DNA from: Halomonas alimentaria
Lineage (GTDB): Bacteria > Pseudomonadota > Gammaproteobacteria > Pseudomonadales > Halomonadaceae
Assembly: GCF_009902005.1 (NCBI RefSeq)
Contig: NZ_WUTT01000001.1
Coordinates: 2,862,805 to 2,926,804, forward strand
Reading direction: 5' to 3'
Length of the DNA stretch: 64,000 bases
Each line of letters opens with the position of its first letter. Position 1 is the first letter of the stretch. Below, piece by piece: positions 47,227-53,369 of the stretch. The notes under the pieces were generated by a model, which saw only the letters and a program-made list of their open reading frames with translations, had not been told where the DNA came from and made no database searches. The position numbers and the translations under genes were made by a program.

Positions 47227-47991
47227 TCAGCGCCGCACGGCGTGGAGCAGGAACTCGCGGTTGCCGTCGCCACCCAGCAGCGGGCTCTCCTGCCAGTGGC
47301 GGACCTCCAGGCCCACTTCAGCACAGCAGTCGCGGATGCGCGCCTCCACTTCGGCGTAGCGGCCAGCATCGGTGACCAGTCCTCGGGCGTTGACCCCACC
47401 GGGGCCCACCTCGAACTGGGGCTTGACCAGGCTGGCCAGCTGGCCACCTGCGGGTAGCAGTGCGGCCAGCTGGGGCAGGATCAGCATCTGGGAGATGAAG
47501 GAGACGTCCATCACCGCCAGCTCCGGTCCGGTGGCGCCCTGCGCCGCGAAGGCCGTCTCGAGGCGGGTATCGTCGGCCATGGCCCGGGCGTTGAGCCCCT
47601 CCAGGCAGGTCACCCGGGGATCTGCGCGCAGCTCGGGGTCGAGCTGGTCATGGCCCACCTCCACGCCGACCACATGGCGGGCACCGAAGCGCAAGGCGCA
47701 ATCGGTGAAGCCGCCGGTGGACTGGCCCACGTCGAGTACCAGCCGGTCCATCAGCTCAAGGCCTAGCGTCTCGATCAGCGCCTCGAGCTTGAGTCCCGCC
47801 CGGGAGACGTAGCGCTCCTCGGGGTCCTCTTCGACAATCAGCCGGGTATCGTCGGGGAGCTTCTCTCCGGGCTTGGTCAGAACCCGGCCGCCTTCGGCCA
47901 GGGCAACTCGCCCATGACGAATCAGCCGCTGGGCGCGGGTGCGGGAGCGGGCCAGCCCCTGTTGCAGCAGGAGCTGGTCTAGCCTGGGCAT
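47227..47991 (-). CDS. tlyA: TlyA-family rRNA methyltransferase
   Basis: A 254-aa protein with an N-terminal S4 RNA-binding domain (MPRLDQLLLQQGLARSRTRAQRLIRHGRVAL) and an FtsJ-type SAM methyltransferase domain: VLDVGQSTGGFTDCALRFGARHVVGVEVG is motif I, VMDVSFISQMLILP the catalytic Asp region, and LVKPQFEVG holds the catalytic Lys. TlyA proteins 2'-O-methylate cytidines in 16S and/or 23S rRNA. It converges on the mechanosensitive channel gene with a 17-bp gap and lies downstream of the ATP-grasp pair. Confidence 0.9.
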   Translation of the reverse strand: MPRLDQLLLQQGLARSRTRAQRLIRHGRVALAEGGRVLTKPGEKLPDDTRLIVEEDPEERYVSRAGLKLEALIETLGLELMDRLVLDVGQSTGGFTDCALRFGARHVVGVEVGHDQLDPELRADPRVTCLEGLNARAMADDTRLETAFAAQGATGPELAVMDVSFISQMLILPQLAALLPAGGQLASLVKPQFEVGPGGVNARGLVTDAGRYAEVEARIRDCCAEVGLEVRHWQESPLLGGDGNREFLLHAVRR

Positions 47992-48010: not shown

Positions 48011-50050
48011 TCAGGGGCCCTCGTCGGCCTGCAGGTCGGTAGGAGGGATGCGGTCTGCGCCCCAGCTGCGGTGGATATGGCCGATCACCCGATCGAGCTC
48101 CTCCTGGGTGATCTGGGCCAGTTCGCCGCGCTCCAGGGGATCGTAGTGGAAGATGTAGAGTCGCGAAGCGAACTGCTCGAATGGCAGCGACGCCTCTCCT
48201 GCTCGCTCGCCGTGGCCGGCGGTGCTGACCTTGATGCCATCACCCCAGTCCTGGCCGCTGTCGTTGTTGGGGTTGAAGAAGTAGACCCGCATCACGTCGG
48301 AGGGATCGAGGTTGACTCGGAGCACGGTGATGGCGTGCCAGCCGATGAAGCGTGCCGCGCTGTCGGTGACCGCGATGCCCGCGGGCTGGGGATGGATCAG
48401 CGGCTGGTTGCCGTTGTAGTAGGGGTGGTAGCTGGCATAGAAGTGGCGCAGGAAGGTATCCAGCTCATGCAGCTGGCCGCTGGCCACGTCGACGTTGATG
48501 CGAAAGCCTCGCCCGGACCACCAGCCGTGGAACTCGGGATTGACCCAGCGGTGCGGGTCGCCTTCGCGGCCGATGCAGCGTCGCCCCATCTCGGCGTAGA
48601 TACGGTCGAGGTGGGGTACCACGATCAGCGACACCGGGTCGAGGTCCATGGGCAGACTCTGGGCCACCCCCGAGAGGCTGGCCATGGAGGAGATCGGCTG
48701 GCCCTCGAAGTGCATGATGATCTCGTCGTCACGCGCCGCCCAGGCCACCATCTGCAGCAGGTAGTCCGGGTCGTTGTAGGCCCACATGGAGAGCGCCCGG
48801 GCCGACTGGCAGGTGGGGTTGTTGCCCTGGCCCACACCCAGTGGCTGGCCGAGCATGCACAGCACCCCTTCGAGCAGCCTGGCTCGCGGCGAGATCGCCT
48901 CGCCGAAGGCCAGGTTGAGCCGTGACTGTGACCATTCGGAGAGCGTCAGGCTCAACTGGCGCCACATGGCCGGGGCCACCGGGGGCTGGTAGAGGATGCC
49001 GCGTTCGAGGGTCAGGGCCAGGCCGTAGGCGGCCTGGGGAGTGGCCGGGTGCACGCCGCCGCGGATCAGCGCCGAGACCAGCTCGCGATAGCACAGCAGG
49101 CAGTCGCGGCCGGTGGCGGAGAGGCCCAGTGCCTCGGCCAGCAGGTGGTCACCGTGATCCAGCAGGTGGCGCAGCAGCACGCTGTGATAGGGCGATACCA
49201 GGCCGGTATCATGCATCGCCCGGGCGAAACCGGTGGCCTCGCCCTGCAGGGCGGCGGTGTCCATGCTGGCGAGCCGCTCGCGGTAGACCTCGATGCCCGG
49301 ATCCTCGCGGCAGGCCCAGGTAGGGCCGAACAGCGAACTGACCAGGCGGTCGGCGCCCTGGCCGCTGGCGCCGAGATCGATATCCGGGTTGGTCTGGCAC
49401 AGCGCGATCTGGGTGATCATCTGCTTGACCGGCTCCACCTGGATGGGCCGCTGCTGCAGGATGCGCCAGATCTCCTCGATCAGGCTGTCGACGATATGTT
49501 CGTAGCCGATGCGTTCGGCCAGGTGACGGAACAGATGGCGGGGGATATTGGCCAGGCGCCCCTGGGTCTCCCGTTCGGCCTCGCTGGGCGCGCCGAACAG
49601 CAGCCACAGGTTGATGGCCATCACCTGGGTCAGATAGTGGTGTGCCTGCTCGGCGGAGATCATGGGGTGAAGGTACTCCCCCTTGGCCACCGCCAGCAGG
49701 CGTAGCTCGCTCAGCGCCTCGATGACCACCGTGTTGGGGTCGGCGCTCTTCAGTGCGTGGGTGGTCAACGTGGGCAGCAGGTACTGGGGGGTCTCCCAGT
49801 CGGAGCCGGCGAAGATGCCGGCCTGCTCGAGGGTCTGGGCGCGGGCCTCGATGGCCGCGGCACCCCCTTCCTGAAGGAGCACCCGGCGGGCCGTATCCAG
49901 CACCCGCGGCAGTTTACCGGGCTTGGCGAAGTCGCGCGCGCCATCGAGCAGGGCGGTCGCTTCGTCGAGCTTTTCCAGCAGGCCGCGCAGCTTGGCATCG
50001 TCGGGTGGCGACTCACCGCCACCCGGATGTTTCTCATCTTGCGTCGTCAC
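48011..50050 (-). CDS. Unrecognised 679-aa protein with papain-like Cys/His/Asn pattern
   Basis: I do not recognise this family. The first ~390 residues look all-helical with no signal peptide. A conserved-looking block from ~400 holds NNPTCQSARALSMWA (Cys414 at a helix start), a middle domain, then GWHAITVLRV (His572) and VYFFNPNNDSGQDWG (Asn593 and nearby Asn/Asp). The order Cys-at-helix, His-in-strand, Asn/Asp-in-next-strand is that of papain-like thiol peptidases, transglutaminases and amidases. GTG 50050 is preferred because AAGGA lies 6 nt before it; ATG 50077 (688 aa) has no such site. It follows an ATP-grasp gene at ~65 bp on the same strand, suggesting the two act together on an amide bond. 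Function is inferred only. Confidence 0.55.
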   Translation of the reverse strand: MTTQDEKHPGGGESPPDDAKLRGLLEKLDEATALLDGARDFAKPGKLPRVLDTARRVLLQEGGAAAIEARAQTLEQAGIFAGSDWETPQYLLPTLTTHALKSADPNTVVIEALSELRLLAVAKGEYLHPMISAEQAHHYLTQVMAINLWLLFGAPSEAERETQGRLANIPRHLFRHLAERIGYEHIVDSLIEEIWRILQQRPIQVEPVKQMITQIALCQTNPDIDLGASGQGADRLVSSLFGPTWACREDPGIEVYRERLASMDTAALQGEATGFARAMHDTGLVSPYHSVLLRHLLDHGDHLLAEALGLSATGRDCLLCYRELVSALIRGGVHPATPQAAYGLALTLERGILYQPPVAPAMWRQLSLTLSEWSQSRLNLAFGEAISPRARLLEGVLCMLGQPLGVGQGNNPTCQSARALSMWAYNDPDYLLQMVAWAARDDEIIMHFEGQPISSMASLSGVAQSLPMDLDPVSLIVVPHLDRIYAEMGRRCIGREGDPHRWVNPEFHGWWSGRGFRINVDVASGQLHELDTFLRHFYASYHPYYNGNQPLIHPQPAGIAVTDSAARFIGWHAITVLRVNLDPSDVMRVYFFNPNNDSGQDWGDGIKVSTAGHGERAGEASLPFEQFASRLYIFHYDPLERGELAQITQEELDRVIGHIHRSWGADRIPPTDLQADEGP

Positions 50051-50115
50051 GCTGAATCCTTGTCGTCCGGCTGTCATGTCTTACATGACGCCTAGGTCAC
50101 GCGAAGAAATCAAGC

Positions 50116-51339
50116 TCAGACATAGAAATCAAGATCTTCCATATGCTTGAGCAGTTCCTTCATGCGCGCCGCCTCGTCGCCCTTGAAGTAGATCAACCCC
50201 CAGTGGGTGCCGAAGGCCGTGCGCTTGGTGACGGTCTCCTCAATGGGCGCGGTGAGCTCGTGGGATTCGAAGTAGGGGTCGTCCTCGACCTCTTCGGGAA
50301 TCTCCAGCTTGCTGACCACGCGGCGGCGCGGATAGACCCCGAAGCAGCCGGCGTAGCCGTCGGCGTCCACCACTTCCTTGGGGAAGAAGGCCTTGACCTC
50401 CTCGGTGGTGGCCTTGGGGTCGAACACCAGCATGCTGGCCTGGTAGGCATTGAAGCCGTAGACCCGCTCGAGCAGCTCGAAGACCTTGAAGCCCGGCGGA
50501 CGATAGGCCACCTCGCCGAAGTACATCTCGCCGTCGTTGGTGACGAAGTACTCGGGGTGGATCAGGCCGAACTCGATATCGAAGGCCTTGATCAGCTTCT
50601 CGATCTGGGCCTTGATCTGCGGGCGGTACTTCTCGAGCTCCGGGGAGGCCGGGACGAACACCGAATAGCCCAGGGTCACGTACTCGGAGATGTTGAGGAA
50701 GACGATCTTGCCATCGTGGATCCACGCCTCGACCGCGAACTCCCAGCCGTCCAGATGCGACTCCATCAGCACCGGGAACTCCTCGTCCGGGATGGTATCG
50801 ACCTCGTCAGGAGTACGGATCACCCGGTGGCCCAGGCAGCCGGCCTTGTCGAAGGCCTTGAGGTGGATGGGGTCATTGGGGTCGCCATCGAGCTTGAGCA
50901 GGGTCTGGTTGACCCGCTTCAGGAAGCGGATGACGTCCTCCTTGTCGTGGGCCTCCTCGAAGATGCCCACGCGAATGCCGCCCAGCTGGGCGCGGCGCTT
51001 CATCAGCGCCTTGTCGCGCAGCAGCAGCGACTGGCCATAGAGGCGCGGGTTGTCGAGCAGCACCGAGTTGATGGCGCCGGCCCACTCCACGGTCTCCTCG
51101 AACATGGGGATGGCGACGTCCACGCCCATCTCCTTGAGCGTCTCGGCGATCTCCATGGAGCGGTCGTTCAAGCGTTCGAAGTTCCACGGCACGTAGGGGA
51201 TGTCATGCTTCTGGCAATACTCCTCTGCCCAGTCCGGCGCCACGACGACGTAGCGTCGGTCGAAGTTCTCGGCGGCTTCGACGGCGTTCAGGCTCCAGCC
51301 CAGCAGAGCGATATAGCCCTTGTTCGGATCCTTTTTCAT
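50116..51339 (-). CDS. ATP-grasp-family ligase, uncharacterised
   Basis: A 407-aa cytoplasmic protein with ATP-grasp architecture: an N-terminal Rossmann-like domain (GYIALLGWSLNAVEAAENFDRRYVVVAPDWAEEYC), a linker with the RDKALMKRRAQLGGIRV segment, and the ATP-binding core from ~150, including LMESHLDGWEFAVEAWIHDGKIVFLNISEY and FGLIHPEYFVTNDGEMYFGEVAYRPPG, the Glu/Asn-rich Mg-ATP site. Such enzymes join a carboxylate to an amine through an acyl-phosphate. The partners here are unknown. ATG 51339 has AGGAGG 7 nt upstream. It precedes the 679-aa thiol-hydrolase-like gene, with which it likely forms an operon. Confidence 0.7.
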   Translation of the reverse strand: MKKDPNKGYIALLGWSLNAVEAAENFDRRYVVVAPDWAEEYCQKHDIPYVPWNFERLNDRSMEIAETLKEMGVDVAIPMFEETVEWAGAINSVLLDNPRLYGQSLLLRDKALMKRRAQLGGIRVGIFEEAHDKEDVIRFLKRVNQTLLKLDGDPNDPIHLKAFDKAGCLGHRVIRTPDEVDTIPDEEFPVLMESHLDGWEFAVEAWIHDGKIVFLNISEYVTLGYSVFVPASPELEKYRPQIKAQIEKLIKAFDIEFGLIHPEYFVTNDGEMYFGEVAYRPPGFKVFELLERVYGFNAYQASMLVFDPKATTEEVKAFFPKEVVDADGYAGCFGVYPRRRVVSKLEIPEEVEDDPYFESHELTAPIEETVTKRTAFGTHWGLIYFKGDEAARMKELLKHMEDLDFYV

Positions 51340-51908: not shown

Positions 51909-53369
51909 ATGCGCAAATGGCCACTGATCGCCGCCGCATGCGGTCTGGGCGCCTGGGGCTCAGCCACCGCCCAGCAAACGACGCCGGGGGAGGATGATCT
52001 GAAGAGGCTGGCGTCCTGTGAGGGCGGTGCCTTCACGACCCACGAGATCGCCGGCGCCGTTGCACGCTATGACGTCGTCGGCGCGGAAGCGGATCGCTGT
52101 CGGCTGCGCTTCACCTACCTTGAAAACCCCAACCCGCGGCTGGAGGGGAAGCCTCTCACCTTTCTCATCGACCCTTCGTCCGCGGACCTGGCGGCCGAAG
52201 TCCAGCAGCAACTGGGCGCTTGCCTCGAGGGGAGCGGTCGGGGTTGCCAGGGCGAGCTCTTTCGCGAACTGGGCGGCAGCGCGCGAAGGGCAGCGGCACG
52301 AGCTGTGACGGAAGGGGCGCTGCCATGCGGGGAGCCCGTGGCTTCCCAGGGATACCCTCTCTACCCCATGCCCCGTGAGGGAAAGTGGGGCTATGTCGAT
52401 CGCAGCGGCGACTGGGTCATCGAGCCCCAGTGGGACCAGGCGACGGACTTCTCGGAGGGGCGTGCCGCCGTGGGTGACTGGCGGCGCTGGGGCATCATCG
52501 ATCGTGCGGGGGAGCTGGTGTTGCCCCTGGAGTACGAGAGCCCCTCCTATTCCAATCTGGAAGGGCGGCGGGTCGTCTCCTCGCCTTTTGCGCCGTTCTC
52601 CGAGGGTTGCGCGGCCGCCGAAATCTTTACCCAGCAGGCCGAGTACCTGTTTGTCGATCGCGACGGTGCCCTCCATCGTCCTGTTCTGCCAGGTGGACAG
52701 GCGTTGGCAGGCCTGGGGAGCTTCTCGGAGGGGCTGGCCTGGTTCTCCTGGAGTGAGGATCTGGAGTGGCATTATGGATGGTTGGATCATCAAGGCCAGG
52801 TCGCCATTCCGGCGGAGTTCGCCGATGCCGGTGATTTCTCGCAGGGGCTCGCCCCAGCCGAGTCACGGCGGGGTGGTGCCGGCTTCATCAATCCCGACGG
52901 GCGGTTGACCCTGCCCCGCAAGTGGACGCTTGAGTCTGCCAGTGCCTTTTCCGAGGGTCTGGCACCGGTCTCCATCGAGCCCTTCCGCACGGTCTACATG
53001 GACGAGGAGGATTTCGTGATCATGCAGGCCCGAGATCCGCAAACCGGCCAGGAGGCGACGATCGAGATCGGCGGCGCCTTCCACAGCGGCCGCGCGCCGG
53101 TGCGGATGACGTTGGGAGAGGAGACGGTAATGGCCTATATCGATCAAGAGGGTGAGGTGGCCTTCGTGCCCGCGCGGTTGCCCGACCTGGTGCCTTGCCA
53201 TACCGGGCGCCTACCGGAGTTCCGTCATGGCCTGCTGCGTTTGCTGGTGGCGGAAGACGGGAAGCGCTGTGGCGAAGGCGCCTACGGCCTAGGCCTACCT
53301 CACTACGACGATGCCCATTACGTTTATTTGGACCCCCGGGGCGAGATCGTGCTGCGTCAGCAGGAATAG
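51909..53369 (+). CDS. Exported WG-repeat protein
   Basis: A 486-aa protein with a signal peptide of ~21 residues (...LGAWGSATAQ), an N-terminal domain with paired Cys, and at least four WG (KWGF) repeats from ~155: KWGYVDRSGDWVIEPQWDQATDFSEGRAAV, RWGIIDRAGELVLPLEYE, WHYGWLDHQGQVAIPAEFADAGDFSQGLAP, and AGFINPDGRLTLPRKWTLESASAFSEGLAPV. The repeats form a beta-propeller-like or solenoid structure of unknown function. A location outside the cytoplasm is implied. It has no clear operon partner; the next gene converges on it. Confidence 0.85.
   Translation: MRKWPLIAAACGLGAWGSATAQQTTPGEDDLKRLASCEGGAFTTHEIAGAVARYDVVGAEADRCRLRFTYLENPNPRLEGKPLTFLIDPSSADLAAEVQQQLGACLEGSGRGCQGELFRELGGSARRAAARAVTEGALPCGEPVASQGYPLYPMPREGKWGYVDRSGDWVIEPQWDQATDFSEGRAAVGDWRRWGIIDRAGELVLPLEYESPSYSNLEGRRVVSSPFAPFSEGCAAAEIFTQQAEYLFVDRDGALHRPVLPGGQALAGLGSFSEGLAWFSWSEDLEWHYGWLDHQGQVAIPAEFADAGDFSQGLAPAESRRGGAGFINPDGRLTLPRKWTLESASAFSEGLAPVSIEPFRTVYMDEEDFVIMQARDPQTGQEATIEIGGAFHSGRAPVRMTLGEETVMAYIDQEGEVAFVPARLPDLVPCHTGRLPEFRHGLLRLLVAEDGKRCGEGAYGLGLPHYDDAHYVYLDPRGEIVLRQQE

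Follow-up and report, generated by a model that had tools for sequence, protein, structure and literature searches.

The window, a stretch of 64,000 nucleotides from a Halomonas alimentaria contig (NZ_WUTT01000001.1), contains two adjacent genes that raise one question: do an ATP-grasp enzyme and a large protein without a family name form a functional unit, and what would such a unit do? An earlier note, made from the letters of the window, had described two same-strand genes about 65 bp apart and had pointed to a cysteine, a histidine and an asparagine in the larger product. Both reading frames are indeed open on the minus strand at the position it gave. The larger protein is here called P1 and the ATP-grasp enzyme P2.

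48011..50077, minus strand: P1 gene, open reading frame of 688 aa from ATG, or 679 aa from GTG at 50050
50116..51339, minus strand: P2 gene, open reading frame of 407 aa (PF13535), an ATP-grasp enzyme that probably forms amide bonds

The 679-aa start of P1 is plausible because AAGGA stands six bases 5' of the internal GTG at 50050; the start of P2 is preceded by AGGAGG. The gap from P2 to P1 is 65 bp with the shorter form of P1, in agreement with the note, and 38 bp with the 688-aa form. The three residues are present, their numbers being raised by nine in the longer form (C414 to C423, H572 to H581 and N593 to N602). Both proteins are probably cytoplasmic, since neither sequence has a long hydrophobic stretch (19-residue Kyte-Doolittle maxima of the two, 1.1 and 1.3).

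Candidate catalytic residues and predicted fold of P1

The view that the larger protein cannot be placed in a family held throughout the searches. P1 of the window gave no usable match in Pfam, NCBIfam, PADLOC, PHROGs or the sequences of the PDB. When 47 homologues were searched against Pfam and NCBIfam with E values up to 1, the best was 0.011 and none was papain-like; the matches were scattered, each touching only one or two members. Sequence searches with five further divergent copies or repeats and with the C-terminal domain returned nothing usable, and a P1 profile gave six PDB matches, to designed helical proteins, thioredoxin reductase and a PPR protein, none with an E value better than 0.007. 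At least 576 stretches, possibly two per gene, were confirmed as relatives of P1 in genome contigs, and the family is one of several hundred members with no name in the libraries searched. P1 was not found in viral contigs, and one record carries it on a plasmid, a 1.8-Mb Halomonas replicon.

Residue conservation was read from 135 distinct P1 sequences including that of the window, with identical sequences and those aligned over 550 residues or fewer excluded. The features of P1 are as follows.

48848..50002, minus strand: predicted all-helical N-terminal region, residues 26-410 (AF2 model)
48128..48844, minus strand: putative papain-like domain, residues 412-650 (model, fold matches and invariant residues)
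48827..48829, minus strand: Gln417, presumed oxyanion-hole residue, six before Cys423, invariant in 135/135
48809..48811, minus strand: Cys423 (Cys414 of the earlier note), presumed nucleophile at a helix start, invariant in 135/135
48335..48337, minus strand: His581 (formerly His572), in a long beta-strand, invariant in 135/135
48272..48274, minus strand: Asn602 (formerly Asn593), directly after the next strand, invariant in 135/135

The Cys/His/Asn pattern is more than chance because all three residues are invariant in these distinct sequences. Cys423 is the only invariant one among the seven cysteines of P1; its loss among homologues had been named beforehand as an observation that would speak against the proposal, and no such loss is seen. 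In papain, Gln19 stands six residues before Cys25, the same spacing as that of Gln417 and Cys423.

The order of the three residues and their secondary-structure setting, which had been likened to those of thiol amidases and peptidases, agree with the predicted models and with the fold matches. In models of moderate or low confidence, a helix (424-435) follows immediately after C423, H581 lies in the strand 577-590 and N602 comes after the strand 596-601. The model of the isolated C-terminal domain has a pLDDT of 69.8, and that of the catalytic loop is below 50. Of the 50 structural matches listed for this domain, 43 are papain-like, judged by their titles or the known nature of the proteins, and 21 of these 43 are calpains; none of the matches reaches Z 5, and values below 8 may reflect only a common arrangement. 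The matches include Ly7917 (Z 4.8), calpain-3 (4.7), Pd_dinase (4.3), bleomycin hydrolase (4.0) and phytochelatin synthase (3.9). Foldseek gave no significant match for P1 (best E 0.1 for the C-terminal domain and 0.085 for the full length). Similarly, a Foldseek search of the C-terminal model against viral structures found nothing significant, the weak matches including giant-virus papain-family proteins and a CHAP protein. The C-terminal domain is thus predicted, from weak but coherent matches, to have a papain-like fold, and the chemistry could equally well be that of an amidase or an acyltransferase as that of a peptidase.

The AF2 model of the N-terminal region contains blocks with pLDDT of 86-97 over residues 31-150, and the pLDDT is below 50 over residues 192-245. 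Its best structural matches (FBF-2 with Z 6.4, condensin, Nop9 and importin-alpha) are below the telling level for helical proteins, and the modelled region is possibly an alpha-solenoid.

Identity and conservation of P2

The assignment of the 407-residue protein as an ATP-grasp enzyme was borne out by a match to PF13535 (ATP-grasp_4) over the cut-off, a marginal one at 28.3 bits against 27. Its PDB matches are weak and fall on L-amino acid ligases, 4wd3 at E 8e-6 with the single sequence and 3vot and 4wd3 at E 3e-4 to 4e-4 with a profile, the alignment covering about 125 of 407 residues. Across 122 aligned rows, from which identical sequences and those aligned over 380 residues or fewer were excluded and in which the window protein is counted twice (two starts), K161, C168, E193, E200, E263, E276 and R280 are invariant, and K149 is kept in 121. 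The conserved Lys, two Glu and Arg presumably have roles in ATP and Mg binding, and the two Glu and the Arg can be aligned with motifs of the L-amino acid ligase BL00235.

50551..50553, minus strand: E263, first presumed Mg-binding Glu, in the motif HPEYF (122/122 rows; aligned with HtE of BL00235)
50512..50514, minus strand: E276, second presumed Mg-binding Glu, in the motif GEVAYRPPG (122/122 rows; aligned with EvgaR of BL00235)

P2 is probably an ATP-dependent carboxylate-amine ligase. Like the L-amino acid ligases (BL00235, PDB 3vot; 4wd3), it has the Glu/Glu/Arg motif in an aligned position. It differs from them in the weakness of the profile match and in the motif E-V-A-Y-R-P-P-G. These ligases are not known to have a papain-like partner.

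P2 is strongly conserved. Outside the family of the window organism, its identity to the window protein is higher than that of RecA in 36 of 39 genomes, equal in two and lower in one; inside the family it is higher in four of seven. RecA was not found in one of the 48 genomes (G002, 75% complete), and the RecA query began about 66 residues ahead of the true start, so that the RecA identity is lowered in a few rows. At the fourfold-degenerate sites of P2 in 17 chosen loci, agreement outside the three closest was 0.38-0.69, where 0.30-0.49 was expected. Agreement at these sites is thus much nearer to chance than the protein identity, so that constraint rather than recent transfer explains much of that identity; older transfer may contribute.

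Co-occurrence and linkage of the two genes

P1 and close relatives of P2 were found in identical genomes at each of three sampling levels: 40 of 293 in the order-level draw, 8 of 274 in the class-level draw and 8 of 299 in the phylum-level draw. Together the three overlapping draws, which we estimate at about 825 distinct genomes, hold 48 distinct genomes with both genes and none with only one. This both-present-or-both-absent distribution points to an undescribed two-enzyme system. Four class-level genomes have weak P2-like matches (29-38% identity over part of the protein) and no P1; these matches are taken as other ATP-grasp enzymes.

Linkage of the two genes, which the earlier note had proposed to examine, is also kept in most of these genomes. 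The genes lie within 2 kb of each other, the definition of linkage used here, in 44 of the 48 genomes, and two of the links are longer than 1 kb (one of the pairs in G060, and G550). Four layouts occur among the 48 linked copies of P1, namely 39 tandem with P2 before P1, three tandem with P1 before P2, five divergent and one convergent, so the linkage has been kept or re-formed through rearrangement. Occurrence of either gene without the other had been set as a refuting test. Neither occurs alone in any genome searched, yet a partner gene is missing next to 14 of the 62 copies of P1 and next to 11 of the 59 copies of P2; the genomes concerned still hold both. Copy numbers, which are lower bounds because the best few candidates were scored per genome (three for P1 in the order-level draw, where the phylum-level search added a fourth in two genomes) and which exclude a broken P1 piece in G230, differ between the two genes, with four P1 and two P2 each in G019 and G093. 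A strict one-to-one couple is therefore not required.

One genome of a second proteobacterial class carries P1 and P2 side by side, and a search of 11 further members of its family found P1 in none; for these reasons the two genes seem to move as a pair. The 80 named nearest relatives of P1 belong mostly to Halomonadaceae and other genera that we take to be marine or halophilic, a bias that may be one of sampling because these are the sequences closest to a Halomonas query. Nine of the 80 loci have no P2 reading frame within 8 kb of P1, and in one of these nine (L145) P2 is cut by the contig end. The mirror-tree correlation of the two proteins (r 0.83, 28 of 98 loci with both) has no control and carries no weight.

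The proposal that an ATP-grasp enzyme and a papain-like thiol enzyme act as one functional unit is thus supported, because the Gln/Cys/His/Asn set is invariant, the papain-like matches are weak and coherent, and the genes co-occur in 48/48 genomes and are linked in 44/48.

Possible functions and neighbouring genes

P2 would convert a carboxylate to an acyl phosphate at the expense of ATP and couple the activated group to an amine, forming an amide or peptide bond. P1, with the triad Cys423-His581-Asn602 and Gln417 in the oxyanion hole, would attack this bond, or a product carrying it, via a thioester. Hydrolysis would complete a make-and-cut cycle like that of glutathionylspermidine synthetase/amidase; the acyl group could also pass to another acceptor, as in phytochelatin synthase. 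The helical N-terminal half of P1 may hold the substrate or dock P2. That the two enzymes act on the same product, and in this order, is what we infer, and there is about an even chance that they form a self-contained module that makes one amide bond and then cuts or transfers it.

Glutathionylspermidine synthetase/amidase combines, within one chain, an ATP-dependent amide ligase with a papain-like thiol amidase, and both work on the same amide bond. The amidase of the E. coli enzyme (PDB 2IO7) is given as MEROPS C51.A and CHAP in PMC10318531. The proposed couple of P1 and P2 is like this enzyme in combining a ligase and a papain-like enzyme on one amide bond. Unlike it, P1 and P2 are separate genes, also in the linked pairs elsewhere; P1 carries an extensive helical region at its N-terminus, and the match of P2 is to ATP-grasp_4. 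The CHAP model was absent from the Pfam matches of the 47 P1 homologues at E up to 1, a range in which HMMER drops most matches above about 0.1. Gene neighbourhoods of ATP-grasp amidoligases and peptidases were reportedly described by Iyer et al. in 2009, and P1 and P2 share the general theme of a ligase beside a peptidase-like gene. The case is one of a known type of pairing that involves a protein family without a name. Among the papers listed in searches of an open-access library, none appeared to deal with this pair.

Two alternatives are unlikely. In the first, P2 would tag one conserved protein with an amino acid or small peptide, which P1 would remove after recognizing that protein through its helical region. 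In eukaryotes, tubulin tyrosine ligase is such an ATP-grasp writer and vasohibin the papain-like eraser. P1 differs from vasohibin in its Cys-His-Asn triad, and the searches made found no sequence relation to this couple. The triad of vasohibin is given as Cys-His-Ser in PMC10318531. The helical part of P1, about 385 residues long and weakly matching alpha-solenoids, exceeds what a small-molecule amidase needs, and the conservation of P2 beyond RecA, with fourfold sites nearer chance, would be expected if a conserved partner held P2. However, a demanding small-molecule reaction would fit that conservation too, all PDB sequence matches of P2 fall on amino acid ligases, and linkage to the pair is constant for no third gene. 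It is similarly unlikely that the two genes are a bacterial system of reversible protein tagging, with an exceptionally conserved ligase as writer, that has spread as a unit within the Gammaproteobacteria and to another class.

The second, on which we place no more than a limited probability, is that the genes code for two successive steps of a biosynthesis, P2 making a peptide-like intermediate that P1 finishes as an acyltransferase or transpeptidase. Papain-like acyltransferases exist; phytochelatin synthase is a papain-like enzyme that acts on a peptide made by ATP-grasp chemistry, extends glutathione and has Asp as its third catalytic residue, where P1 has Asn. Its representative Alr0975 (C83; PDB 2bu3) is among the fold matches of P1 (Z 3.9 and 3.8, the former over 144 residues with rmsd 4.2), although it shows no sequence match and P1 is about three times as long. 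The presence of several P1 copies per P2 in some genomes would be in keeping with more than one end product, but the surroundings of the pair hold no other constant gene for biosynthesis, tailoring or export. Co-occurrence in 48/48 genomes fits a shared product and different steps of one pathway alike.

A further possibility, quite improbable, is that P1 is a common protease, or a papain-like scaffold devoid of activity, that P2 acts on something unrelated and that the genes merely travel together. The fold evidence for P1 is weak, but full invariance of the four residues argues against a dead enzyme, and co-occurrence that includes four genomes with unlinked genes argues against mere linkage.

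The pairing implies a specific amide-bond product that is made and processed by many marine and halophilic Gammaproteobacteria. An unnamed family is tied, in all of the 48 genomes found to have it, to an ATP-grasp enzyme mostly more conserved than RecA, and identification of the product would reveal a metabolite or a protein modification that is new. The invariant Cys423 offers a direct handle for catching it (C423A trap).

The earlier remark that neither a substrate nor an attached gene for transport or defence is evident still stands: the neighbours vary by lineage, no constant third gene was found in the neighbourhoods examined and PADLOC (2023 library) returned no family for P1 or P2 at E up to 0.1. 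An ABC transporter, polyamine-type by eye and confirmed in its permease domain only, lies upstream of a solo P1 in two loci of the Marinobacter family (L043, L046), and a same-looking one, confirmed to the same extent, lies upstream of the pair in Saccharospirillum (L156). A fatty acid desaturase gene stands beside a solo P1 in L041 and L044, and a fatty acid hydroxylase gene follows the pair in Haliea (L126). Polyamine metabolism and lipid modification were set aside as functions, each resting on one or two lineages and lacking a control.

A lead towards osmoregulation came from genes of the MscK, MscS and BCCT-like types that adjoin the pair in certain lineages. MscS-family genes occurred in 9 of 81 test regions (six of the nine in Halomonadaceae) versus 3 of 55 controls, and BCCT-like genes in 5 of 81 versus none of 55, the test regions (1.45 Mb; 10 of them from the 80 named loci) being compared with regions elsewhere in the same genomes (1.05 Mb) at chosen round-number positions, not randomly drawn. 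The 25 test regions examined after the lead arose, most of which had been covered before for only about 1.5 kb to either side of P1, contained neither type. Osmoregulation is therefore not supported, and it is very improbable that salt-adapted bacteria use the pair to form and degrade an osmolyte-like dipeptide, even with these neighbours and the marine or halophilic relatives in favour of this reading.

One further neighbour in the window is the gene directly downstream of P1.

47227..47991, minus strand: TlyA-type rRNA methyltransferase gene, 19 bp 3' of P1 (TIGR00478 over the cut-off)

It is possibly co-transcribed with P1 at this locus. As a third partner TlyA was rejected, not being constant: of 69 matches in the neighbourhoods examined, 68 follow P1 in the same orientation, at -221 bp to about 7 kb, and all of these are from Halomonadaceae. 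The remaining match, in Marinimicrobium (L158), is convergent and only 52% identical.

The gene pair and its two proteins

The ATP-grasp enzyme gene (P2) and the neighbouring gene for a putative papain-like protein (P1) form a real pair, which is no artefact. On the minus strand, P2 is followed by a 38-bp gap, P1, a 19-bp gap and a TlyA-type gene:

50116-51339, minus strand, P2, 407 aa
48011-50077, minus strand, P1, 688 aa
47227-47991, minus strand, TlyA-type rRNA 2'-O-methyltransferase gene, 19 bp past P1

An alternative P1 start, an internal GTG with AAGGA 6 bases upstream, would give 679 aa and a 65-bp gap to P2; residue numbers here refer to the 688-aa form. The closest named relatives among the matches listed, from which the window's own genome records were possibly excluded, belong to Halomonas; the P1 protein of Halomonas sp. 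SSL-5 shows 97% identity. Between P2 and a putative amino acid ABC transporter operon, judged by eye, lies a gene for a WG-repeat protein (window 51909-53369, plus strand).

P2 is an ATP-grasp enzyme. Its score for Pfam ATP-grasp_4 (28.3) lies just above the cut-off of 27, and its PDB matches were L-amino acid ligases only: 4wd3 in a single-sequence search (E 8e-6), and with a P2 profile 3vot and 4wd3, with E values of 3e-4 to 4e-4 over about 125 residues. Across 122 P2 rows there is no variation at Lys161, Glu263, Glu276 or Arg280, nor at Cys168, which lies in the presumed glycine-rich loop, or at Ala278, the position matching an asparagine in the classical ATP-grasp motif.

P1 has no usable match to any curated family in the libraries searched; 47 homologues searched against Pfam and NCBIfam gave scattered matches, none usable, with a best E value of 0.011. 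P1 is likely papain-like, an assignment that leans more on its residues than on the models. Gln417, Cys423, His581 and Asn602 are all invariant in 135 distinct sequences with identities down to 43%, and Cys423 is the sole invariant one among seven cysteines. Gln417 lies six residues ahead of Cys423, the spacing found in papain.

The P1 model is not firm, because its 53 input sequences (the window's and 52 relatives at 74-92% identity) are too similar. The full-length model reached a pLDDT of 73.8 and a pTM of 0.55, and residues 376-688 modelled alone reached 69.8 and 0.61. Both place Cys423 immediately ahead of a helix, His581 within a long strand and Asn602 right after the next strand. Foldseek searches with the P1 models returned no significant match, and in VIA-align no chain reached Z 5 against the C-terminal model. 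Of the 50 VIA-align matches listed for that model, 43 were papain-like by their titles or known family: 21 calpains, and also endolysin Ly7917, bleomycin hydrolases, Pd_dinase, phytochelatin synthase, C39 transporter domains, staphopain and cathepsins. The remaining seven were unrelated or not placed. With the full-length model, the C-terminal half matched calpains, staphopain C, Pd_dinase and kin (Z 4.6-5.6), and the N-terminal half matched helical-repeat and other helical proteins (FBF-2 at Z 6.4, condensin, Nop9 and importin-alpha), matches that fall below the level telling for helical proteins.

Co-occurrence and conservation

Three overlapping whole-genome searches found P1 in 40 of 293 order, 8 of 274 class and 8 of 299 phylum genomes, and close P2 relatives in the identical 40, 8 and 8 genomes (cut-offs for P2 of 1e-20, 1e-10 and 1e-10 respectively). 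Combined, both genes occurred in 48 genomes and one gene alone in none. Four further class genomes, lacking P1, gave weak, partial P2 matches (E 1e-11 to 1e-23, 29-38% identity), which are taken as other ATP-grasp enzymes. The genes lie within 2 kb of each other in 44 of the 48 genomes, and four layouts occur among the 48 linked P1 copies. Unlinked copies numbered 14 of 62 for P1 and 11 of 59 for P2, copy numbers being lower bounds because only the best few candidates were scored per genome. At 71 of 80 named loci P2 lies within 8 kb of P1, and at one more it is cut by a contig end; this is a neighbourhood figure, with a rest-of-genome view for L133 only among the other eight genomes.

Gain and loss of the two genes are joint throughout. 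Both are absent from four genomes of the window's own family in the order draw, and one genome of another class carries an adjoining pair, although a search of 11 further genomes from its family found P1 in none. Because the genomes are related, independent events are fewer than the raw counts suggest; by genus within the order, the genes occur together in 19 of 118. In one genome a short P1 remnant (G230:C16:40623-40760) adjoins a P2 copy, and an intact P1 lies elsewhere.

P2 is strongly constrained, since its fourfold sites are much less similar than the protein. Outside the window's family, P2 identity to the window protein exceeded that of RecA, the sole yardstick, in 36 of the 39 genomes, matched it in two and fell below it in one (means 83% and 76%), although the RecA query began upstream of the true start and its extra residues lowered identity in a few rows. 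Inside the family P2 exceeded RecA in four of seven genomes.

A probable shared pathway

Given the strict co-occurrence, P1 and P2 very likely share a pathway; that they act on one product is roughly an even bet. Most likely P2 would form an amide bond, and P1, via a thioester on Cys423, would either cut that bond or pass the acyl group on. The nearest working model is glutathionylspermidine synthetase/amidase, in which the ligase is fused to a papain-like amidase. In contrast, P1 and P2 are separate genes, and Pfam found no CHAP domain in 47 P1 homologues, which together place them outside that family. The helical half of P1 and the strong conservation of P2 leave room for a bolder but less likely reading, in which P2 would be the writer and P1 the eraser of a protein tag. 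Each protein is a certain or probable member of a known superfamily, and their pairing follows a known theme; in the libraries searched, neither the family of P1 nor its strict tie to P2 has a name.

Neighbouring genes

In the fetched neighbourhoods, no gene near P1 or P2 is constant except the partner. TlyA and MscK adjoin the pair chiefly in Halomonadaceae, many of which share the P1-TlyA order; in Marinimicrobium (L158) TlyA is convergent beside P1. Genes for MscS, BCCT-like proteins, ABC transporters and fatty-acid modification also recur, each in a few lineages. An osmoregulatory role, suggested by the MscS, MscK and BCCT-like neighbours, found no support in a comparison with control regions of the same genomes.

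ABC transporter genes stand immediately upstream of P1 copies without an adjoining P2 in loci L043 and L046 (gap of 3 bp in L046), and similar ones upstream of the pair in Saccharospirillum (L156); their polyamine type was judged by eye, the confirmed part being the permease domain only. Such solo P1 copies adjoin a fatty acid desaturase gene in L041 and L044, and in Haliea an overlapping fatty acid hydroxylase gene follows the pair (domain tested in L126, relative in L148). A solo P1 overlaps a 7TM-GGDEF diguanylate cyclase gene by one base (L045:10160-11962), and at another locus (L141:10067-11830) a GGDEF-EAL gene comes after the pair.
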